From an uncultured Alphaproteobacteria bacterium (lineage in GTDB: Bacteria; Pseudomonadota; Alphaproteobacteria; Geminicoccales; Geminicoccaceae): a stretch of DNA of 64,000 bases. The stretch spans positions 62,001-126,000 of the forward strand of contig CALKJU010000054.1 in the NCBI GenBank assembly GCA_937995535.1, read 5' to 3'. Below, piece after piece: positions 19,426 through 39,878 of the stretch; position 1 is the first letter of the stretch, and the number at the start of each line of letters is the position of its first letter. Both the position numbers and the translations under genes were made by a program. The notes beneath the pieces are model-generated. The model was given only the letters and a program-made list of their open reading frames with translations, was not told where the DNA came from and did no database searches.

Positions 19426-19500
19426 TGGAGCGGGCGATGGGGATCGAACCCACGACATTCAGCTTGGGAAGCTGACGTTCTACCACTGAACTACGCCCGC
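19426..19500 (-). tRNA. tRNA-Gly (anticodon CCC)
   Basis: A full cloverleaf on the minus strand. The acceptor stem GCGGGCG pairs with CGCCCGC, the D-arm contains AGTTCAGTGGTAGAAC, the anticodon stem TCAGC/GCTGA encloses the loop TTCCCAA (anticodon CCC), and the T-arm has GGGTTCGATCCCC. The CCA end is encoded (19426-19428). It reads GGG glycine codons. Confidence 0.95.
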
Positions 19501-19591: not shown

Positions 19592-19667
<76 letters not shown>

Positions 19668-28675: not shown

Positions 28676-29605
28676 TCAGGTGGCGGGACGGAAGGGCACG
28701 CCGAGGCAGGCCGGGGCGTTCAGCCGGCCCCGCCACGGGCCGGCCGAGATCGCCACGAGTACGGCGATGGTCGCGAGGTAGGGCAGCATCGACATGACCT
28801 GGGCCGGGACGTTGATGATCCCCGAGGTCTGGGCATGGAGCTGGATGATCGTGACGCCGCCGAACAGGTAGGCCCCGATCAGCGCCCGCCACGGCCGCCA
28901 GGCGGCGAAGACGACCAGCGCCAGCGCGATCCAGCCGCGCCCGGCGCTCATGTCCTCGACCCACATCGGGGTGTAGGAGAGCGACAGGAAGGCGCCGGCC
29001 AGCCCGGCCATCAGGCCGCCGAACAGCACCGCGAGATAGCGGATGCGGATCACCGGATAGCCGATCGCATGCGCAGCCTCGTGGCTCTCGCCGACGGCGC
29101 GCAGGATCATGCCGGGCCGGGTGCGGGTCAGGAACCAGGCCACAGCCGCGGTCATCGCCCAGGACAGATAGACGAGGAAGTCCTGGCCAAACAGAACGGG
29201 ACCGACGATCGGCAGCTGGCTCAGCCCCGGCAGCGCGAGCTTCGGCAGCGGCGCCACCGGCGAGCCGACGAACCCGGAGCCGACCAGTGCCGAGAGGCCG
29301 ACACCGAAGATCGTGAGCGCCAAGCCCGTCGCGACCTGGTTGGAGAGGAGCGAGAGCGTCAGGACCCCGAACAGGAGCGCCATGGCCATCCCCGCCACGG
29401 CCGCGGCGATCACGCCGACGGTCCCGCTGCCGGTCAGCATGGTCGCGGCGAAGCCGGTCACCGCGCCGGCCAGCATCATGCCTTCGACGCCGAGGTTGAG
29501 GACGCCCGAGCGCTCGGCCACGAGTTCCCCCAGTGCGGCGAGCAGCAGCGGTGTGGCGGCGCCGATGATGGTCAAGAGCGAGGCCACGAGGATCGTCGTG
29601 CTCAT
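28676..29605 (-). CDS. ABC transporter permease (nucleoside/purine importer), second subunit
   Basis: 309 residues from the ATG at 29603-29605, about eight to nine membrane segments. The segment LVAERSGVLNLGVEGMMLAGAVTGF and the later RTRPGMILRAVGESHEAAHAIGYPVIRIRYLAVLFGGLMAGLAGAFLSL are typical of the YufQ/NupC-like permeases that partner BMP proteins. Its start overlaps the stop of the preceding permease (ATGA), so both subunits are made in a coupled way. Confidence 0.9.
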   Translation of the reverse strand: MSTTILVASLLTIIGAATPLLLAALGELVAERSGVLNLGVEGMMLAGAVTGFAATMLTGSGTVGVIAAAVAGMAMALLFGVLTLSLLSNQVATGLALTIFGVGLSALVGSGFVGSPVAPLPKLALPGLSQLPIVGPVLFGQDFLVYLSWAMTAAVAWFLTRTRPGMILRAVGESHEAAHAIGYPVIRIRYLAVLFGGLMAGLAGAFLSLSYTPMWVEDMSAGRGWIALALVVFAAWRPWRALIGAYLFGGVTIIQLHAQTSGIINVPAQVMSMLPYLATIAVLVAISAGPWRGRLNAPACLGVPFRPAT

Positions 29606-30690
29606 GGGACGGCCCTCCCGACGGCAGGCTGGGCGAGGCGAATGCGGTAGCGGGCGAGGAAGTCGCAGGCCAACACCCAGAACAGCAGCAGTCCCTGGAA
29701 CACCCCGGTGGTGGCCTGGGGCAGCGACGCCTCGACCTGAGCGTTCTCGCCACCGATGAAGGACAGCGCCATGAGGAACCCGGCCGCGACCAGGCCCAAC
29801 GGATGCAGGCGGCCGAGGAAGGCCACGATGATCGCGGTGAAGCCGTAGCCCGGAGAGATCGTGGGCACGATCTGGCCGATCGGACCGGCGACCTCGAGCA
29901 GCCCGGCGAGCCCGGCGAGGCCGCCGGACAGGAGCATCGTCAGCCAGATGATTCGCGTCCGGGAGAAGCCGGCGAAGGCCGCCGCGTCCGGGGCGAGGCC
30001 GATGACGCGCACCTGGAAGCCGACCAGCGAGCGGGTCACGAACAGCCAGGCCCCGGCCACGATCAGCAGGGTGAGCGCGAAGCCCCAGTGCAGCCGGGTC
30101 TCGGGCAGGAGCAGCGGGATCTCGGTCCAGGGCGAGATGTCGGTGAAGAACTGGGTCTGCGGGAAGCCGTAGCCCTGGGGATCCTTCCACGGCCCGTAGA
30201 CCAGCGTGCTCAACACCAGGACCGCGACGTAGGTGAGCATGAGGCTCGTCAGGATCTCGTTGACGCCCAGACGGGTCTTGAGGAAGGCCGGGATCGCCGC
30301 CCACAGCATGCCGCCGAGGACGCCGAACAGGCACATCACCGGGAGCGCCAGCGGCCCCAGCGCGGGCGACCAGAACAAGCCGATTCCGCCGCCGAAGATG
30401 GCGCCGAGGATGAGCTGACCCTCGGCGCCGATGTTCCACACGCCGGCGCGAAAGCCGATCGCCAGGCCGGTGGCGCAAAGGATCAGCGGCGTCGCCTTGA
30501 GGCACAGCTCGCTGAGCCCGTAGACGCTCGCCAGCGGCGAGACGAACATCGCATAGAGCGCCGCCAGCGGGTCCACGCCGAGCAGCAGGAACAGGAAGAA
30601 CCCGGTGACGATGGTGAGGACGACCGCGAGGACCGGTGTCGCCCATGTCAGCGCCGGGGAGGCCTCGCGGCGCGGCTCGACCCTAAGCAA
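29602..30690 (-). CDS. ABC transporter permease (nucleoside/purine importer), first subunit
   Basis: About 362 residues. Membrane segments with GFRAGVWNIGAEGQLILGAIFGGGIGL, the hallmark of the YufP-type permease, then LKTRLGVNEILTSLMLTYVA and FQVRVIGLAPDAAAFAGFSRTRI. No ATG or GTG fits the N-terminus; the best start is a TTG at 30688-30690 that overlaps the ATPase stop (TTGCTTAG), giving a coupled junction. A longer frame continues upstream, but only as a shadow of the ATPase gene. Confidence 0.88.
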   Translation of the reverse strand: MLRVEPRREASPALTWATPVLAVVLTIVTGFFLFLLLGVDPLAALYAMFVSPLASVYGLSELCLKATPLILCATGLAIGFRAGVWNIGAEGQLILGAIFGGGIGLFWSPALGPLALPVMCLFGVLGGMLWAAIPAFLKTRLGVNEILTSLMLTYVAVLVLSTLVYGPWKDPQGYGFPQTQFFTDISPWTEIPLLLPETRLHWGFALTLLIVAGAWLFVTRSLVGFQVRVIGLAPDAAAFAGFSRTRIIWLTMLLSGGLAGLAGLLEVAGPIGQIVPTISPGYGFTAIIVAFLGRLHPLGLVAAGFLMALSFIGGENAQVEASLPQATTGVFQGLLLFWVLACDFLARYRIRLAQPAVGRAVP

Positions 30691-32236
30691 GGGCGGTCTC
30701 CAGGGGCTGGTGCTCGGGCGTGTCGTGGAGGCCGCCCATGAGCAGCCCGATCTGCTCGATGGTGGCCTCGGCGGTGCGCAGCGCGCGCGACAGCCGGCCG
30801 GCGTTGATGACCGCGAGGCGGTCGGTGATCGCGAGCAGCTCGTCGAGGTCCTGGCTGACCACCAGCACGGCCGCGCCACGCGCCGCGAGATCGAGCAGCG
30901 CCTGATGGATCAGGGCCGCGGCGCCGGCGTCCACACCCCAGGTCGGCTGGGCCACCACGAGGACCAGCGGTTCCTGCAGCACCTCACGGCCGACGATGAA
31001 CTTCTGCAGGTTGCCGCCCGACAGGCTGCGGGCGAGATTGGCGATGCCGGGGGTCCGGACGTCGAACCGCTCGACGATCTCGCGTGCGAACGCAGCCACG
31101 CGGTCGGTACGGATCAGCCCGCCCGCGAGCAGCCTGCGGCGCCGATAGCCGGACAGGAAGGCGTTCTCGGCGAGGCTCATGTCCGGCACGGCCCCGTGCC
31201 CGTTGCGCTCCTCGGGGACGAAACAGAGGCCCGCGTTACGCCGCGCCGCAGCGTCAAGGCGGCCGACCGGACGCCCCTCGAGGCGCACCGCTTCGGGTCG
31301 CTCGGCCAGCATCTCGCCCGACAGGGCGGCGAGCAGCTCGGCCTGGCCGTTGCCGGCGACGCCGGCGATGCCGAGCACCTCGCCGGCGCATACTTCGAGT
31401 CGGATGTCGTGCAAATTGATGCCGTGCGCCCGTGGCGAGGGCAGGGAGAGTCCGTCCACGGTCAGGCGCGGCGCGCCGACGGTGGCCCCCGCCGCCTTGG
31501 TCGGCGGCTTGATCTGTGTGCCGACCATCAGCGCCGCCATGCTGCGCGCCGTCTCCTGGCGCGGGTCGCAGGCGGCGACCTGCCTGCCGCCACGCAGGAT
31601 CGTGGCGCCGTGACACAGCACCCGGATCTCGTCGAGCTTGTGGCTGATGTAGAGGATCGAGCGGCCTTCCGCGGCGAGCCGGCGCAGCGTTTCGAACAGC
31701 CGCTCGACCTCCTGCGGGGTCAGCACCGAGGTCGGCTCGTCCATGATCAGCAGCTTGGGATCCTGGAGCAGGGCGCGGACGATCTCGATCCGCTGCCGCT
31801 CGCCGACCGAAAGCGAGTAGACGTCGCGGCTCGGGTCGAGCGGCAGGCCGTACTGCTCGCTGACCTCGCGGACGCGGCGGGCGAGCGCCCCCAGGTCGTG
31901 CACCCCGTCGACGCCCAGCGCCACGTTCTCCAGCACGCTCATCGCCTCGAACAGCGAGAAGTGCTGAAAGACCATGCCGATGCCGAGCGCCCGGGCGGCG
32001 TGGGGGTCGGCGATCGTGACCGGCTGGCCGTTCCAGCGGATCTCGCCGGCGTCGGGGTGCAGGACGCCGTAGATCTGCTTGACGAGCGTGCTCTTGCCGG
32101 CGCCGTTCTCGCCGAGCAGCGCGTGGATCTCGCCCGGCATGACCTTGAGGTCGACCCGGTCGTTGGCGAGCACGCCGGGGAACTGCTTGGTGATGCCGCG
32201 CAGCTCCAGGAGCGGCGGGCCGGTCGGTCTGTCCAT
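30683..32236 (-). CDS. ABC transporter ATP-binding protein with two ATPase domains (nucleoside/purine importer)
   Basis: 517 residues. Two fused ABC domains as in YufO/RbsA-type proteins: domain 1 has GENGAGKSTLVKQIYG, LSVGERQRIEIVRAL and LLIMDEPTSVLTP; domain 2 has the degenerate GVAGNGQAELLAALSG and LSGGNLQKFIVGRE. The start is the ATG at 32234-32236, which has GGGGGAG just before it; a GTG four codons upstream lacks such a site. It lies 29 bases after xdhC and links transport to purine oxidation in one transcript. Confidence 0.9.
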   Translation of the reverse strand: MDRPTGPPLLELRGITKQFPGVLANDRVDLKVMPGEIHALLGENGAGKSTLVKQIYGVLHPDAGEIRWNGQPVTIADPHAARALGIGMVFQHFSLFEAMSVLENVALGVDGVHDLGALARRVREVSEQYGLPLDPSRDVYSLSVGERQRIEIVRALLQDPKLLIMDEPTSVLTPQEVERLFETLRRLAAEGRSILYISHKLDEIRVLCHGATILRGGRQVAACDPRQETARSMAALMVGTQIKPPTKAAGATVGAPRLTVDGLSLPSPRAHGINLHDIRLEVCAGEVLGIAGVAGNGQAELLAALSGEMLAERPEAVRLEGRPVGRLDAAARRNAGLCFVPEERNGHGAVPDMSLAENAFLSGYRRRRLLAGGLIRTDRVAAFAREIVERFDVRTPGIANLARSLSGGNLQKFIVGREVLQEPLVLVVAQPTWGVDAGAAALIHQALLDLAARGAAVLVVSQDLDELLAITDRLAVINAGRLSRALRTAEATIEQIGLLMGGLHDTPEHQPLETALA

Positions 32237-32265
32237 GCTCTCCCCCACCTCGGCTGTCGCGGCGC

Positions 32266-33117
32266 CTAACCGGTCACGGCCAGCACGGGCCCGCCGCCGG
32301 CCAGCTCGCGCCGGGCAAGCACGGTGATCAGCTCCGCGGCGACCAGCGCCGCGATGACCGCCGGCCGCTTGTCACGCACCTCGCTGCCGCCGATCGGGCA
32401 GACCAGACGAGCGATCCGCTCGCGCGGCAGGCCCAGCTCGCGAAGGCCACGCTCGAAGCGCGCCCGCTTGGTCGCCGAGCCGATCACGCCGAGATAGGCG
32501 AGGTCGTCGCGTCCGAGCGCCGCCGCGCAGACCTCGAAGTCGAGCGCGTGGCTGTGGGTGAGGACGAGGCAGGCGGCACCGGTTGGCGCCAGGTGCACCT
32601 CCTCGACGAGGCGATCGGTGGCCACGACCTCGATGGCGCCCGGCAGCGCGGCGGGGAACTGATCCGGGCGCGGGTCGATCCAGCGGACCCGGAGGGGCAG
32701 AGGTGCCAGCGCTCGGGCGAGCGCCCGGCCGACATGACCCGCACCGAACAGCAGCACGGTCGGTCGGCCGGCCGCCTCGGCGCGCTCGGCGGCCGCGAGC
32801 GCGGCAAGCGTCGCGCGGTCGGCGCGGCGGATCGTCAGCCGGACGCGCCCGCCGCAGCACTGACCCACCTCCGGCCCGAGCGGCATGTCCAGCGCCGCCT
32901 CGACTTCACTGCCGGCGAGCAGCCGGCGGGCGTGCTCGATCGCCGCCCACTCCAGCCGACCACCGCCGATCGTGCCGTGGATCGCGTCCGCGGTGACCAA
33001 CATCCGCGCTCCCGCCTCGCGCGGCGTCGAGCCGCGCGCTGCCGCCACCACCACCTCCGCCGCCGGCACGTCGGCGGCGAGCAGGGACGCGAGCGCGGGT
33101 GCAAGCGCGTCCGTCAC
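32266..33117 (-). CDS. xdhC: Xanthine dehydrogenase accessory protein XdhC
   Basis: 283 residues, GTG start. An N-terminal XdhC/CoxI domain (VVVAAARGSTPREAGARMLVTADAIHGTIGGGRLEWAAIEHA, with GQCCGGRV) is followed by a Rossmann-like domain with VLLFGAGHVGRALARALAPL and THSHALDFEVCAAAL. XdhC binds and sulfurates the molybdenum cofactor and delivers it to the XdhB subunit. The start overlaps the xdhB stop (GTGA), the usual A-B-C order. Confidence 0.93.
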   Translation of the reverse strand: MTDALAPALASLLAADVPAAEVVVAAARGSTPREAGARMLVTADAIHGTIGGGRLEWAAIEHARRLLAGSEVEAALDMPLGPEVGQCCGGRVRLTIRRADRATLAALAAAERAEAAGRPTVLLFGAGHVGRALARALAPLPLRVRWIDPRPDQFPAALPGAIEVVATDRLVEEVHLAPTGAACLVLTHSHALDFEVCAAALGRDDLAYLGVIGSATKRARFERGLRELGLPRERIARLVCPIGGSEVRDKRPAVIAALVAAELITVLARRELAGGGPVLAVTG

Positions 33118-35438
33118 GGCGCGCCTCCACTGTCGCTCGCCCGCAGCCGTTCGATCGCCGCCAGGACTTTCTCCGGCGTGGCCGGGGGATCGAGGCGGGG
33201 TGGCAGCTTGTGGTCGGCGATGCTCGCCACCGCGTCGGAGATGGCGTGCAGCACCGAGATCGCGAGCATCAAGGGCGGCTCACCCACGGCCTTCGAACGA
33301 TGGATGGTGGGCTCCCGGTTGGCCACGCCTTCCATCAGACGGACGTTGAACACGGGCGGCCTGTCGGAGGCGCAGGGGATCTTGTAGGTGCTGGGCGCGT
33401 GGGTGCGCAGGCGGCCGTCGGCGTCCCACCACAGCTCCTCCATCGTCAGCCAGCCCATGCCCTGGATGAAGCCGCCCTCGACCTGGCCGAGATCGATCGC
33501 CGGGTTCAGCGAGCGGCCGACGTCGTGCAGGATGTCGACCCGGTCGACCCGGTGCTCGCCGGTCAGCGTGTCGACGGTCACCTCGCTGCAGGCGGCGCCG
33601 TAGGCGTAATAGTAGAAGGGCCGGCCGCGGCCCTCCTCGCGGCTCCAGTGGATCTTGGGGGTCGCGTAGAAGCCGGTGGCGGAGAGCTGGATCCGCGCGA
33701 AGTAGGCGTCGTGGACCAGCTTGTCGAACAGGATCTCCTCGCCCTTGACGCGGATGCGGCCGGGGAGCCAGACGACCTCTTCGGCGCTCGCCTGAGCGCG
33801 TGCGGCGGCGAAGGCGGTGAGCCGCTCCTTGATCGTCCGCGCCGCCGCCTGCGCGGCCATGCCGTTGAGATCCGAGCCGGACGAGGCGGCGGTGGCGGAG
33901 GTGTTCGGCACCTTGCTGGTGTTGGTCGCCGTGAGGCGGATCCGGTCGATGTCGACCTGCAGCTCCTCGGCCACGACCTGCGCCACCTTGACGTAGAGGC
34001 CCTGGCCCATCTCGGTGCCGCCATGGTTCAGCTGGATGCTGCCGTCGCGGTAGACGTGGAGGAGCGCGCCGGCCTGGTTGTAGGCGGTCATGGTGAACGA
34101 GATGCCGAACTTGACCGGGGTCAGGGCGAGGCCGCGCCTCTGCCAGCGGCTCGTCCGGTTCCAGGCGCGGATCTCGTCGCGGCGTGCCCGGTAGTTGCTC
34201 GTCCGTTCCAGCTCCTCGACGAGCTCGTGGATGATGTTGTCCTCGATCGCCTGGTGGTAGGGCGTGAGGTTCCGCTCCGCTCGGCCGTAGAAGTTGCGCT
34301 TGCGGACGTCGAGCGGATCCAGGCCCAGCGCGAAGGCGACCTCCTCGATGACGCGCTCGGCCGCGACCACGCCCTGCGGCCCGCCGAAGCCGCGGAACGC
34401 CGTGGCCGAGACCATGTTGGTCCGGCACGGGAAACAGGCCAGGCGGACGTTCTCGTAGAAGTAGCAGTTGTCGGCGTGGAACAGGGCGCGGTCGTTGACC
34501 GGTCCGGACAGGTCGGCGCTCCAGCCGCAGCGCGACGCGAAGTCCATCGCCACGGCCTTGATGACGCCGGTCTCGTCGAAGCCGACCTCGTAGTCGATCG
34601 TGAAGTCGTGACGCTTGCCGGTCATGATCATGTCGTCGTCGCGGTCGAGCCGGCATTTGGCCGGACGGCCCGTGGCCCGCGCGACGAGCGCCGCCACCGC
34701 GGCGAACAGGTTGGCGTGCGTCTCCTTGCCGCCGAACGCGCCGCCCATGCGCCGGCACTCGACGGTCACGGCATGGCTCGGGACGCCCAGGACCTGGGCA
34801 ATGAGCAGCTGGCCCTCGCTCGGATGCTGCGTCGAGCAGTGGACCAGGACGTCGCCATCCTCGCCGGGGACGGCCAGGGCCACCATTCCCTCGAGATAGA
34901 AGTGCTCCTGGCCGCCGATCGTCATCCGGCCCTGCAGCCGACGTGGCGCCCGGGCCAGCGCGGCCGGCGCGTCGCCGCGCTGCATCCGCCCGATCGGCCA
35001 GACCAGATCGCCCGCGGCCCGCGCGGTGTCGGTGTCGAGGACCGGGGGCAGATCCGCATACTCGACGACGGCCAGCGCCGCCGCGCGGCGGGCCTGCAGC
35101 CGGGTCTCGGCGGCGACCGCGAACAGCGCCTGACCCGCGAACATCACCTTGTCCACGGCGAACACCGGCTCGTCGTGGGCGTGGACCGCGCTGAGGTCGT
35201 TCACCCCCGGGATGTCGGCCGCGGTGAGCACCGCGACCACGCCCGGTGCCCGGCGCACCGCGTCGAGATCCATCCGCACCAGCCGCGCATGGGCTCGCGC
35301 GCTCTGCCCGATGTGGACCTGCACCGTCCGCGCCGGCTCGGGGATGTCGTCGACATAGACGGCGGCCCCGGTGACATGCTTGTGGGCGCTGTCGTGCACG
35401 CGCGCCTCGTGGACGCCGCCGACGATCCGCTCAGACAT
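33114..35438 (-). CDS. xdhB: Xanthine dehydrogenase, molybdopterin-binding subunit
   Basis: 774 residues, the normal length of bacterial XdhB. The start is the ATG at 35436-35438 ([35 protein letters not shown]). Molybdenum-site motifs are present: [35 protein letters not shown], the [22 protein letters not shown] loop, and a C-terminal GVGEPPL-like [17 protein letters not shown]. It hydroxylates hypoxanthine and xanthine to urate with XdhA. Its start overlaps the xdhA stop by eight bases. Confidence 0.95.
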
Positions 35439-36903
35439 GGGCGAGACTCCGATCGCCGACGAGCCGGGTTTCGGCGCTGTGGCCACTTGTCTCCAGCCAC
35501 GCCTTGAGAAGCAGGTTGCGGGCCACCTGGAGGCGGTAGCCGGCCGAGGCGCGCATGTCGGTGATCGGCGAGAAGTCCTGGGCGAGCGCCGCCATCGCCG
35601 CGCGCACCGTCGGCTCGGCCCAGGCCCGGCCGCGCAGCGACGCCTCGGCGGCCGCGGCCCGTTTCGGCGTCGCCGCCATGCCGCCATAGGCGATCCGTGC
35701 CTCGCGGACCGTGCCACCGTCGAGGGTGATCGTGAAGGCGCCCAGCACGGCGGAGATGTCCTGGTCGAAGCGCTTGCTGATCTTGTAGGCGCGGAACCGC
35801 TGCTCGGGGCGGCGGCGCGGGACGATCACCGCCTCGACCAGCTCGTCGGGTCGCCGGTCCTGCTTGCCATAGGCGAGGAAGAAGTCCTCGAGCGGCAGCC
35901 GCCGCCGCTGCCTGCCGCGGCGCAGCACGAGGGTCGCGCCGGCGGCGATCAGCAACGGCGCGCTGTCACCGATCGGCGAGCCATTGGCGATGTTGCCGCC
36001 GATCGTCGCCGTGTTGCGGATCGGCGGCGAGGCATAGCGACGGTAGACCTCGCCCATGTCCGGCCACTCGGCGGCGAGCGCCGCCATGCCGTCGGCGCAG
36101 GTCACCCCGGCGCCGATCTCGATCGCTTCGGCGCTCGCGCGGATTTCGCGCAGCTCCGCCACCCGGCCGAGCCAGATGATCGTCTCGAGCCGGCGATCCT
36201 GCTTGGTGACCCATAAGCCGACATCGGTCGAGCCCGCGAGTACGGTCGCTCCCGGATGGGCGAGCAGCAGATCGGCCAGCGCCTCGAGCGTGGCGGGGGC
36301 GAGGAACCGGCGGTCGCCGTCCTCGATCAGCAGCGTGCTGCGGTCGTCGGCAAGTGCCTCGAGCTGCGCCAGGACCTCGACCTCGCGCCCGAGCAGGTGC
36401 GCGGTGGCGCCCGGTGTTTCGGCGAGGCGCTCGGCCGCGGCGAGGATCGGCCCGTAGCCGGTGCAGCGGCAGAGATTGCCGGCCAGCCGGTCGGCGATCT
36501 CGGCCCGGGTCGCGCCGCCGCCCGCGCGCCACAGCGGGAACAGCGACATGACGAAACCGGGGGTGCAGAAGCCGCATTGCGAGCCGTGCGCCTCGACCAG
36601 CGCGCGCTGCACCGGATGCAGCTCGCCGTCCGGTCCCTGCAGGTCCTCGACGGTCAGGAGCTGGCAGCCGTCGAGCGTCGGGACGAACTGGATGCAGGCA
36701 TTGACGGCGCGGTAGTCGAGGCGGCCGCCGGCGGGACGGGCGAGGACCACGGTGCAGGCGCCGCAGTCGCCCTCCGCACAGCCCTCCTTGGTTCCCTTGC
36801 GGTGCTCGTGGCTGCGCAGATAGTCCAGCACGGTGAGCGTCGGGTCGACCCCGCGCAGGCTGCGCCGCTCGTGACCGAGCAGGAACTCGATGCTGTCGCG
36901 CAC
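35431..36903 (-). CDS. xdhA: Xanthine dehydrogenase, FAD and [2Fe-2S] subunit
   Basis: About 490 residues from the GTG at 36901-36903 (VRDSIEFLLGHERRSL); a start eleven codons upstream is possible. The N-terminal part binds two [2Fe-2S] clusters (KEGCAEGDCGACTVVL with a further NACI Cys; then QCGFCTPGFVMSLF and NLCRCTGYGPI). From about residue 185 follows the FAD domain with GSTDVGLWVTKQ and IGGNIANGSPIGDSAP. It passes electrons from the molybdenum subunit to NAD. It lies directly after uraH. Confidence 0.95.
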   Translation of the reverse strand: MRDSIEFLLGHERRSLRGVDPTLTVLDYLRSHEHRKGTKEGCAEGDCGACTVVLARPAGGRLDYRAVNACIQFVPTLDGCQLLTVEDLQGPDGELHPVQRALVEAHGSQCGFCTPGFVMSLFPLWRAGGGATRAEIADRLAGNLCRCTGYGPILAAAERLAETPGATAHLLGREVEVLAQLEALADDRSTLLIEDGDRRFLAPATLEALADLLLAHPGATVLAGSTDVGLWVTKQDRRLETIIWLGRVAELREIRASAEAIEIGAGVTCADGMAALAAEWPDMGEVYRRYASPPIRNTATIGGNIANGSPIGDSAPLLIAAGATLVLRRGRQRRRLPLEDFFLAYGKQDRRPDELVEAVIVPRRRPEQRFRAYKISKRFDQDISAVLGAFTITLDGGTVREARIAYGGMAATPKRAAAAEASLRGRAWAEPTVRAAMAALAQDFSPITDMRASAGYRLQVARNLLLKAWLETSGHSAETRLVGDRSLAHV

Positions 36904-36943
36904 GCTCGGCTCCTTTCCTGCCGCCGCCCTGGTCAATGTCGCC

Positions 36944-37312
36944 TCAGCTCCCGCGGTAGGTCGAGTAGGACCACGGCGAGATCAGCAGCGGGACATGGTA
37001 GTGCTGGGCCGGGTCGGCGATCCCGAAGCGGATTGGGACAATGTCGAGGAATGGCAGCGCGGGCAGGGTGATGCCCTGCCCACGGAAATAGTCGGCGACG
37101 TGGAAGACCAGTTCGTAGGTGCCGGCGAGCAGCGCATCACCGGCGAGCAGTGGCGTGTCGACCCGGCCGTCGGCGTTGGTGCGCACCGACTTGAGCGCGA
37201 GCCTGCCGTCCGGCGTGCAACGCAGGAGATCGATCGCCACGCCGCCCCCCGGCCGGCCATGTACGGTATCGAGCACGTGGGTGGTGAGCCGTCCGCCGCC
37301 CGCTCCTGCCAT
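36944..37312 (-). CDS. uraH: 5-hydroxyisourate hydrolase
   Basis: 122 residues, full length for a transthyretin-related HIU hydrolase. Family marks are [20 protein letters not shown] at the N-terminus, [25 protein letters not shown], and the diagnostic C-terminal tetrapeptide YRGS. It hydrolyses 5-hydroxyisourate to OHCU, two steps after xanthine oxidation. It is the first gene of the purine operon. GGAGG precedes the ATG. No uricase gene is in the window. Confidence 0.95.
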
Positions 37313-37323
37313 GCCAGCGCCTC

Positions 37324-37355
37324 CGTTCGTGGTGCATGGCTGTCATGCACGAACG
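37324..37355. promoter_or_regulatory. Palindrome upstream of uraH, candidate operator
   Basis: GTGCATG (37332-37338) and CATGCAC (37344-37350) form a perfect 7-bp inverted repeat with a five-base centre. Outside it, CGTTC (37324-37328) and GAACG (37351-37355) also match after a three-base bulge. It lies 12-43 bases upstream of the uraH start, next to its ribosome-binding sequence. It fits an operator for a dimeric repressor of the purine operon, or an mRNA hairpin in the leader. No regulator gene is adjacent. Confidence 0.55.
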
Positions 37356-37517
37356 CCGAGCGCAGCGGAACGCGCCGGCGCGGGAATCAGCTTCAAGCGA
37401 TTCCGAAAGGCGCGCGGTCGGGCAGGCCGCGCGCGCTCGATTGTGGTTGACAGCCGGTTCCGTGTGATGCAGCCTACCCTGTGATGCGACGGAGCCATGT
37501 AGCGATGCAATGGAAGG
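37356..37517. other. Gene-free stretch before the structured region
   Basis: This contains the presumptive promoter of the purine operon (leftward) and perhaps one for a rightward transcript: TTGACA at 37447-37452 is a perfect -35 box, but I find no matching -10 box at the usual distance. No supportable coding frame is present. Confidence 0.35.
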
Positions 37518-37822
37518 GCTGGCAAAGGTAAGTCCAGCTCAGGCTCTGGGTCGTGTCGGGGCGGGCCGAGGTCTCGCCCGCAACTCCCACCGGGGAGGGT
37601 CGGTCACGATGAATCCACCGGGTCACCCTCGCGGTCTCTGCGACTGACAGGGACCGCCAAGGCCGAGACGAAAGCGAGAGCTGGGCGCTCGGCGCCGGTT
37701 GCAAAACGCGATTGCAAGACACGCCGCGACGGCTGCGGTCGCGCGGCAGCAGGACCGACTGATCTCAGGTCCGATCAACCGACGAAAAGGCGGCCCCGCC
37801 GGTGAGACATACGGCGGGGCCG
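37518..37822 (+). ncRNA. Unassigned structured RNA-like region (strand tentative)
   Basis: A series of hairpins with short spacers fills this gene-free region: GCTGG/CCAGC (37518-37538), CGGG...CCCG with CGA/TCG inside (37562-37580), GAGGGT/ACCCTC enclosing CGGT/ACCG (37595-37630), GCGGTCTCTG/CAGGGACCGC (37631-37657, one G-U pair), GGCCGAG/CTCGG-GCC (about 37661-37695) around ACGAAAGCGAGAG, TTGCAA/TTGCAA (37699-37717), a GCCGCGAC stem (about 37723-37750), GGACC/GGTCC (37752-37772) and a 10-bp stem (37791-37822). No coding frame is convincing. A group II intron 5' domain, a HEARO/omega-type RNA, or a new RNA are possible; none is established. Orientation is guessed from the G-U pair and GAAA-type loop. 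Confidence 0.4.
37791..37822. repeat. Perfect 10-bp inverted repeat, possible terminator
   Basis: CGGCCCCGCC (37791-37800) and GGCGGGGCCG (37813-37822) with a 12-base loop. Read leftwards it is followed by CCTTTTCG, a short T-run, so it could be a weak terminator for a minus-strand transcript; read rightwards no T-run follows. It forms the right boundary of the hairpin cluster and lies 79 bases before the cupin start. Confidence 0.6.
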
Positions 37823-37900
37823 TCGGCGTCTGCCGCCCCTTTCCCGCCCGCCGGGCGCCGCCTAGACACGCCGCGACAGCAGCCAGCGACGAGGTATGCG

Positions 37901-38266
37901 ATGGGCGAGGTCACCTACCGCCGCGGCGACAGCGACGAGCGGCCCTGGGGCCGATGGGAGGTGCTCGACACCGGCGCGGGCTTCGCGGTCAAGCGGATCA
38001 CGGTCAAGCCGGGGGCGATCCTGTCGCTGCAGCTGCACCATCACCGCGCCGAGCATTGGGTGATCGCCTGCGGCCGGGCGCGTGTGACGCGCGGCGACGC
38101 GATCCTCGAGCTCGGGCCCGGCGAGCATGTCCACATCCCGGTGGAGACCCCGCACCGGATCGAGAACCCGGGCGCCGAGATCATGGAGTTCGTCGAGATC
38201 CAGTATGGTGAGCGGCTCGACGAGGGCGACATCGTCCGGCTCGAGGACCGCTATGGCCGTGCCTGA
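37901..38266 (+). CDS. Cupin-domain phosphomannose isomerase type II-like protein
   Basis: 121 residues from the ATG at 37901. A single cupin domain with metal-ligand histidines in LSLQLHHHRAEHWVIACGRARVT and in GEHVHIPVETPHRIENPG, and the WGRWEVLDTGAGFAVKRITVKPGA entry that resembles the C-terminal isomerase domain of ManC-type mannose-1-phosphate guanylyltransferases. As a stand-alone protein it probably isomerises or binds a sugar phosphate. Its stop overlaps the start of the SDR gene by 14 bases, so the two are coupled and likely act on related compounds. Confidence 0.8.
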   Translation: MGEVTYRRGDSDERPWGRWEVLDTGAGFAVKRITVKPGAILSLQLHHHRAEHWVIACGRARVTRGDAILELGPGEHVHIPVETPHRIENPGAEIMEFVEIQYGERLDEGDIVRLEDRYGRA

Positions 38267-39029: not shown

Positions 39030-39878
39030 TCACGGCCCCTGGGGCTGGGCCGGGCCGGGGTGGGTGGGGGTGAGCAGCAGCCGGCGGGCGAGGCGTTCGA
39101 GGGCGGCATCGTCCAGCCGCTCGAGGGCGAGGCGCTCCGCCGGGCCGGCCTGGGCGAAGGCGTGCATGAGCCGGGCGGTGAGCGCGTCGCGCTGCTTCTC
39201 CCGGATCGGCTCGGGCGTCCGCGCGGGCGGCGGCGGCGGGCAGCGGCCCGCGGCGGCGGCGCGGTGCAGGGCGTGGACGGCGGCGCCCAGCGGGTCGGCC
39301 TGCGGATCGGGGCCCGCGGCGGCGGCGGTCCAGCGGCCCTGCTCGACGACGATCGCCGCCTGCAGCCCGGCCGCGGTGCGGTGGCAGAGCGTGGCGAGCG
39401 GGTCGGGCCGCGGGCGCGGGTCGGGCGGCGCAGGCGGGCTGCCCTGCGGATCGCGGCTCGCGGGCGCGGCGGCGGCCGGGGCCGCGGCGACGCCTTCGGC
39501 GGCGTGCTCGGCGGCGTGCTCGGCGGCGGCGCGCGCCAGCCCGCGCTCGAGCCCGTCGACCAGCGTGCGGACCGGGTCCCGGCCGCGCCGGGCCTGCGCC
39601 AGGGTGAACAGGGCGGCTGGCAGCGAGCGGCGCTCGAGCGCCTCCTCGAGGACCAGCTGGGCGAGCTTGGTGAGCCGCTCGGTGCGCGCTTCCGGGGCGA
39701 GCGCCAGCAGCTCGCGCCAGCCCTGGACGATCTCCAGGAACGCGGCCTCGCCCATGAGCTGCTCGAGGAGCTCCGCGGGGCAGCGGGCGGCCTGGGCGGC
39801 ACGGGCCGGGTCGAGCCCGGCGGCGAGGCGGCGGGCGAGCTGGACGCGGCGGACGAGGCGCGGGCGGCGGGGCGGCAT
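39030..39878 (-). CDS. Hypothetical Ala/Arg/Pro-rich protein
   Basis: 282 residues, not recognised. The N-terminal 110 residues look folded and helical (RVQLARRLAAGLDPARAAQAARCPAELLEQLMGEAAF resembles a small helix-turn-helix). A low-complexity middle (AAEHAAEHAAEG, then Pro/Ala-rich) follows, and a helical C-terminal end (REKQRDALTARLMHAFAQAGPAERLALERLDDAALERLARRLL). No signal peptide, cysteines or catalytic motif stand out. It could be a DNA-binding or small-terminase-like protein, but nothing around it supports phage origin. The third-position GC content matches its neighbours. A competing frame on the same strand is less protein-like. Confidence 0.55.
   Translation of the reverse strand: MPPRRPRLVRRVQLARRLAAGLDPARAAQAARCPAELLEQLMGEAAFLEIVQGWRELLALAPEARTERLTKLAQLVLEEALERRSLPAALFTLAQARRGRDPVRTLVDGLERGLARAAAEHAAEHAAEGVAAAPAAAAPASRDPQGSPPAPPDPRPRPDPLATLCHRTAAGLQAAIVVEQGRWTAAAAGPDPQADPLGAAVHALHRAAAAGRCPPPPPARTPEPIREKQRDALTARLMHAFAQAGPAERLALERLDDAALERLARRLLLTPTHPGPAQPQGP

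Follow-up and report, generated by a model that had tools for sequence, protein, structure and literature searches.

A candidate small RNA class with a Met-x-Pro-Pro reading frame in Geminicoccaceae and other Alphaproteobacteria

RESULTS

A multi-hairpin element lies upstream of a cupin gene

The window, by which we mean the whole 64-kb stretch of Geminicoccaceae DNA analysed here, has a GC content of 72%. The element under study lies on its plus strand, between a divergent purine-catabolism block (28676-37312, minus strand) and a cupin gene that Pfam assigns to the stand-alone mannose-6-phosphate isomerase C-terminal domain. Within the purine block, an HIUase and a molybdopterin dehydrogenase subunit were identified with Pfam, and an XdhC-like protein and a nucleoside-type ABC transporter by reading of the translations only. 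Elsewhere the window carries a complete cobalamin riboswitch (RF00174; 728-920, plus strand, 116 bits), two divergent tRNA genes about 90 bases apart (19429-19500, minus strand, and 19592-19664, plus strand), and an Ala/Arg-rich frame of 282 aa with AAEHAAEHAAEG repeats (39030-39878, minus strand), which has no Pfam match and no relative in viral contigs.

An earlier note on this DNA had described positions 37518-37822 as a dense array of hairpins with no credible coding frame. Its 10-bp stem is present as P3 and its GACGAAAGCGAGAG-containing stem as P4 (Table 1), and its perfect closing repeat pairs 37791-37801 with 37812-37822. The element extends further in the 5' direction than the note had it, to a predicted promoter and a transcription start that we infer at ~37482. 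As for coding, a credible long open reading frame is indeed lacking, but a 12-codon frame (sORF) with its own Shine-Dalgarno (SD) sequence and stop codon was overlooked. A CTCCC at 37584-37588 could pair with that SD sequence. Hairpin P8 has no T run on the plus strand; the AAAA upstream of it reads as a run of T on the opposite strand. In the window copy, the palindromic TTGCAA..TTGCAA hairpin takes the place of the CCGACAAT motif of most relatives, and the GACAAT motif is absent.

Table 1. Parts of the candidate RNA gene and its downstream neighbour (window coordinates)
Feature	Position	Strand	Basis and remarks
Promoter (predicted)	37447-37475	+	-35 TTGACA (37447-37452), 17-nt spacer, -10 CAGCCT (37470-37475)
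Long 5' hairpin P1	37477-37560	+	MFE and centroid fold of the window element
Shine-Dalgarno GGAGG of sORF	37594-37598	+	Sequence comparison, pattern search
12-codon sORF, MNPPGHPRGLCD and stop	37609-37647	+	ATG AAT CCA CCG GGT CAC CCT CGC GGT CTC TGC GAC TGA
Hairpin P3 (GCGGTC.CTG / CAG.GACCGC)	37631-37657	+	Fold; sORF stop codon in loop
Hairpin P4 (GGCCGAG / CTCGG.GCC)	37661-37696	+	Fold; holds GACGAAAGCGAGAG
Small hairpin TTGCAA-AACGCGA-TTGCAA	37699-37717	+	Sequence
Hairpin P6 (GCCGCGAC / GTCGCGCGGC)	37723-37747	+	Fold; helix 3 of the covariation alignments
Hairpin P7 (GGACC / GGTCC)	37752-37772	+	Fold
Terminator-like hairpin P8, 13 bp, GC-rich	37789-37824	+	Fold
Cupin gene (neighbour, outside the RNA)	37901-38266	+	Pfam PF01050, E = 1e-35

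For 37518-37822, the folding energy of the plus strand is -152 kcal/mol (z = -2.8, matched by 1 of 100 shuffles), and z is -2.2 for the minus strand. Ranked against all 305-nt stretches of the window with correction for GC, the plus-strand fold is at the 5.6th percentile, so that in a window this rich in GC folding alone is insufficient to prove an RNA gene. The stems behind the claim of unusual order are there, the rank of the fold is less striking, and the folding is notable, not decisive.

A comparison with Rfam release 15 (4227 models) yielded no match at the gathering threshold in the 37518-37822 region, and none of the relatives described below exceeded that threshold either. At E ≤ 10, the best match was the Caulobacter small RNA CrfA (RF01527), which scored 22.2 bits (cut-off 38; E = 0.096) and aligned weakly over its full length to 37694-37833, mainly through the GC-rich terminator; as it was absent from every relative, we judged it to be chance. 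Covariance models of group II introns (D1-D4, domain V) and HEARO had no match up to E = 10 in 37300-37950, so the suggestion that the stretch is an intron remnant or a HEARO RNA finds no support. Neither ARAGORN nor Rfam placed a tRNA or tmRNA at the element, nor was 6S RNA (RF00013) found there; the 6S RNA of the same genome is at G000:C13:55438-55597 (61.4 bits).

Relatives in Geminicoccaceae share the helices with compensatory changes

As a DNA query, the window element matched only itself in the family genomes, and blastn with the whole element turned up no true homologue, either in the family or among plasmids. A 37-nt blastn match in G039 was rejected as chance, as it consists of P-loop codons of an unrelated CobO-like ATP-binding gene, and matches of the L013 element in G019 and G024 were dismissed as chance terminator or coding matches. 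The cupin gene, which almost every one of the 31 family genomes carries, was used as an anchor for homologues. In three genomes of one genus (G015, G022, and G001) and one of another (G012), a multi-hairpin element sits a short distance ahead of this cupin gene, with its parts in the order seen in the window. A promoter of the TTGAC-N17 type comes first, then a long hairpin on the 5' side, the conserved block TGACTCCACCGGG, a series of further hairpins, and lastly a terminator, here CCCCGCCG..CGGCGGGG. Promoters of the form TTGAC-N17-CATCAT/CATGAT/TAGCCA align at the matching place in L013, L014, L016, and L022, as does the long 5' hairpin in L013, L014, and L022, and the position of hairpin P8 is kept in all Geminicoccaceae members.

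From these four elements only, with the window left out, we built a covariance model, R1. Its best match in the 64-kb window is 37608-37825 on the plus strand (E = 9.6e-5; the next match has E = 1.6), although at 21.9 bits the match in the window itself is weak. Among the family genomes, R1 recovered G021 (50.5 bits), where the cupin follows 170 nt downstream, and G017 (29.6 bits), where no cupin adjoins, adding two further genera beyond the window. The promoter, the sORF, and the helices are conserved in five Geminicoccaceae genera. Over 385 genomes of the class, R1 matched only G012; since the prefilter misses even the window's own genome, absence in this search says little.

Both-side pair changes numbered 7 in alignment A1, compared with 2.4 in shuffles. 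Alignment A2, which takes in the window, G021, G017, and one partial reverse match, and which was fitted to the model, has 25 such changes against 11.0 in shuffles, and 91% of its cells are paired against 37-50% with the partners slid. Compensatory changes occur in every helix. The P3 helix is kept with changed pairs, the helix corresponding to P4, to which the window was aligned by hand, covaries in the relatives, and a CCCGGT..ACCGGG type hairpin occupies the P7 position. The window copy is among the most divergent members of the RNA class. The earlier note had named a lack of homologues with compensatory changes, along with a lack of transcripts on either strand, as grounds for giving up the RNA; such homologues were found, and with no Rfam family to receive them, its suggestion of a new RNA class is supported.

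The most conserved block is a Met-x-Pro-Pro reading frame

The reading frame, comprising the SD sequence and the short ORF, is the most conserved block of the element. In the window it encodes MNPPGHPRGLCD, which starts with Met-Asn-Pro-Pro-Gly; the peptides of the Geminicoccaceae relatives are MTPPGQVDGASV, MTPPGQQDGASLA, MTPPGQPDGASV, MTPPGSPVGVTA (GTG start), and MNPPGSMGGARS, and that of G017 is METLPPNHPIRS, behind GAGGTGAAG, each followed by a stop codon. An SD-start-Pro-Pro-Gly-stop pattern run over the 31 Geminicoccaceae genomes hit exactly the six expected RNA loci, with 0 matches in the reversed control, and a less strict pattern (SD, start, Pro-Pro) occurred once in the 64-kb window where 0.1 was expected.

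All 24 members of the class-wide set have an ATG or GTG start, a peptide beginning Met-(Thr/Asn/Ser)-Pro-Pro-x, and a stop after 6-16 codons, and in 23 of them GGAGG precedes the start codon by 8-15 nt. Pro-Pro falls at codons 3-4, except in G017, where it is at codons 5-6. The two Pro codons vary synonymously (CCA/CCG/CCT and CCG/CCT/CCC); because the search patterns partly fixed first and second codon positions, including the first two bases of the Pro codons, this variety is a partial coding test only, and the case for coding selection draws on third-position variety and a few members found without patterns. The residue after Pro-Pro was fixed in the family-wide and two class-wide patterns and left free in another; most of the 24 members have G, D, E, or N there, and six have A or T. 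Pro-Pro followed by P, D, E, G, N, or W is a strong context for an EF-P-dependent stall, and A or T a weaker one, so the six rows make the stall reading a tentative one.

Beyond residues 1-5, the peptides have no similarity across families, and their lengths range from 6 to 16 residues. Even near relatives may differ in the tail (MTPPDWKI vs. MTPPDSEF), and others keep the peptide (MSPPALT/MTPPALT/MTPPTLT; MTPPAI..DNLATTAD). A stop codon within a hairpin was not significant as a class-wide feature (mean z -0.87). The spacer between SD and start may form a hairpin, with a summed stem of 54 bp against 39.5 ± 3.4 in shuffles, an excess that is only suggestive because the members are related. MTPPG was not found in the literature as a bacterial peptide.

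The RNA recurs in other alphaproteobacterial families

Pattern searches of 385 genomes of the class gave 24 matches against 2 in the reversed control, and 12 against 0 when residue 5 was left free; the reversed control of a third pattern gave 3 matches. Inspection by eye showed about half of the raw class-wide matches to be ordinary coding sequence, and these were discarded; long-frame matches and a few short ones inside genes were left out as coding or chance. What remained places the MxPP-sORF RNA in about eleven alphaproteobacterial families besides Geminicoccaceae, with peptides including MTPPGQQAPT, MTPPGYRRQS, MTPPGQLRRSLGFA, MTPPDSLHS, MTPPDWKI, MTPPDSEF, MTPPEEVVRS, MTPPDHLIGPR, MTPPEES, MTPPTLT, MTPPAINSDNLATTAD, and MTPPAIRPDNLATTAD. 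Seven pattern matches in viral contigs, none with the anatomy of the RNA, were judged to be chance.

The recurring unit consists of a TTGAC promoter (in most), the SD sequence, the MxPP ORF, a GC-rich hairpin or terminator, and in several the GACAAT motif. In 20 of the 24 members, TTGAC precedes the sORF by 63-162 nt; GC-rich hairpins, most of them resembling terminators, come after it in all 24, the automatic call being weak in a few; and a strict motif search found GACAA plus T or A after the stop codon in about half, the CCGACAAT/GACAAT motif standing outside the sORF in many members. The window shares this make-up, having an SD sequence, ATG, (Thr/Asn/Ser)-Pro-Pro, a stop within 16 codons, its own predicted promoter, and a downstream GC-rich hairpin. 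Azospirillum plasmids carry an MSPPALT sORF in an unannotated spacer; on p4 of Azospirillum argentinense Az39 (NZ_CP007797, about 215,130-215,390; L206, 3031-3054) the unannotated member sits between a hypothetical gene and the convergent phbB. The main text of an Azospirillum sRNA paper does not mention the phbB locus, and our literature search found nothing on small RNAs of Geminicoccaceae.

Some genomes hold more than one frame or copy. At L178 (G065:C89, 1501-1640), two frames, MTPPGH and MTPPDQIARGA, each with its own SD sequence, share one RNA with a single terminator. L194 (G081:C1, minus strand) has two tandem RNA copies (MTPPTLT and MTPPALT), each with a promoter and a terminator. L163 and L175 are near-identical copies on two contigs of G260 with nearly identical downstream sequence, which reflects either a duplication or an assembly artefact. 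A query with the RNA of L163 had no match.

Neighbouring genes differ between members

Four Geminicoccaceae genera (g1, g2, g13, and g15) have the RNA ahead of the same cupin, at a distance of 60-170 nt and with both in one orientation; besides the window, the loci where the cupin adjoins it are L013, L014, L016, L022, and L034. Genus g2 has a conserved TTGCNN-N17-CTCAAT-like putative promoter between terminator and cupin. In G017, the RNA is found between polA and a convergent gene, pointing away from polA; in Azospirillum it is followed by the convergent phbB (p4) or other genes; and in other families the genes after it are unrelated, with several copies facing a convergent gene. An attenuator should precede the same gene in all members, and the downstream gene in G017, Azospirillum, and other families is a different one. 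The idea of a leader of the cupin operon thus agrees with the four Geminicoccaceae genera and fails elsewhere, where the RNA is free-standing or adjoins unrelated genes. Convergent and differing downstream genes point to a free-standing transcript rather than the leader of one operon, and we take the RNA to be an independent transcript whose place beside the cupin was kept in part of Geminicoccaceae.

DISCUSSION

Our comparisons demonstrate homology across families, with the start codon, Pro-Pro, the early stop, and the predicted helices all conserved. Relatives in a dozen alphaproteobacterial families, together with the absence from Rfam, make this look like an undescribed RNA class, and on sequence evidence the class is well supported; its function is not. 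The reading we prefer, at a probability of roughly 0.55, is a small RNA gene that stands alone, measures about 340 nt (~37482-37824, plus strand), and belongs to such a class; its SD sequence and 6-16-codon Met-(Thr/Asn/Ser)-Pro-Pro ORF would make ribosomes pause at Pro-Pro, and the RNA would act in trans.

Transcription would run along the plus strand from the sigma-70-type promoter (start ~37482) to the GC-rich terminator hairpin (~37824). Ribosomes would load strongly at the sORF start site and pause at Pro-Pro, codons 3-4, in the manner that EF-P relieves; in E. coli, ribosomes stall on PPG placed early in an ORF, a stall that EF-P relieves (PMC5021804). A paused or terminating ribosome may then mask the start-site hairpin and P3, and this masking could decide how the 3' part folds, how long it lasts, or which targets it has. 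On this view the RNA would work in trans, as a small RNA whose action depends on the state of translation, and would not serve as the source of a working peptide; conservation of only the first four or five residues argues for a pause over a peptide product. A more tentative extension, possible rather than probable, is that the whole class serves as a ribosome trap or sensor, in which ribosomes pausing on Met-x-Pro-Pro would let the RNA report or tune EF-P or prolyl-tRNA capacity in trans, some genomes having two ORFs or tandem copies.

Among the alternatives, we take most seriously, doubtful as it is, a base-pairing small RNA whose 3' half (the GACAAT region and hairpins) acts on target mRNAs and in which sORF translation is incidental or RNA-stabilising. 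The free-standing gene with its terminator, the CCGACAAT/GACAAT motif conserved outside the sORF in many members, and the divergent tails of MTPPDWKI and MTPPDSEF would all suit it, whereas the most widely kept features are the SD sequence, the start, Pro-Pro, and the early stop, and the window copy lacks GACAAT. If, on the other hand, a leader peptide and terminator controlled the cupin gene as a cis-acting attenuator, the RNA's constant position ahead of that gene in g1, g2, g13, and g15 would follow naturally; we regard this as unlikely in view of the putative promoter between terminator and cupin in g2 and of the convergent or unrelated next gene in G017, Azospirillum, and several other families.

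A tiny gene with a functional peptide product seems still less probable: the peptides have nothing in common past residues 1-5 across families and vary from 6 to 16 residues in length, despite the strong SD and start and the retention of MSPPALT/MTPPALT/MTPPTLT and of MTPPAI..DNLATTAD between near relatives. Chance folding of GC-rich spacer DNA, with no RNA gene at all, would fit the 5.6th-percentile fold and the lack of true homologues among whole-element blastn matches from the family and from plasmids; the independent R1 match to the window and the promoter, sORF, and helices conserved in five Geminicoccaceae genera make it very improbable.

The proposed pausing small RNA has partial parallels among known systems. 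SgrS/SgrT is a dual-function small RNA that combines a regulatory RNA with a small ORF. SgrS/SgrT-type RNAs are likewise small and free-standing, with an ORF and structured parts; the present RNA differs in its 6-16-codon ORF, of which only MxPP is kept, in having no known target, and in showing no sequence relation to them. With his/trp-type attenuators, whose leader peptides pause ribosomes, it shares a short SD-led ORF in a structured RNA ending in a terminator hairpin. Pro-Pro serves as a pause site in an engineered HisL Pro-Pro reporter (PMC8129111) and in PPG inserts (PMC5021804), as predicted here; in contrast to these pausing leader peptides, in which the site is near the end, Pro-Pro here occupies codons 3-4, and the RNA is free-standing or adjoins unrelated genes rather than a single downstream operon. 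RAPP-type arrest peptides, which arrest at a C-terminal RAPP-like sequence upstream of protein-localisation genes (PMC10987492, PMC12992588), resemble it in the predicted Pro-Pro-based arrest and differ in the C-terminal position of the arrest site and in the genes beside it.

Structured small RNAs that are spread through a class and absent from Rfam are rare. A ribosome start site with an immediate Pro-Pro pause motif as the top conserved feature would tie small RNAs to EF-P and to the capacity for translation, and the unannotated presence of the RNA in Azospirillum plasmids opens it to direct testing now.
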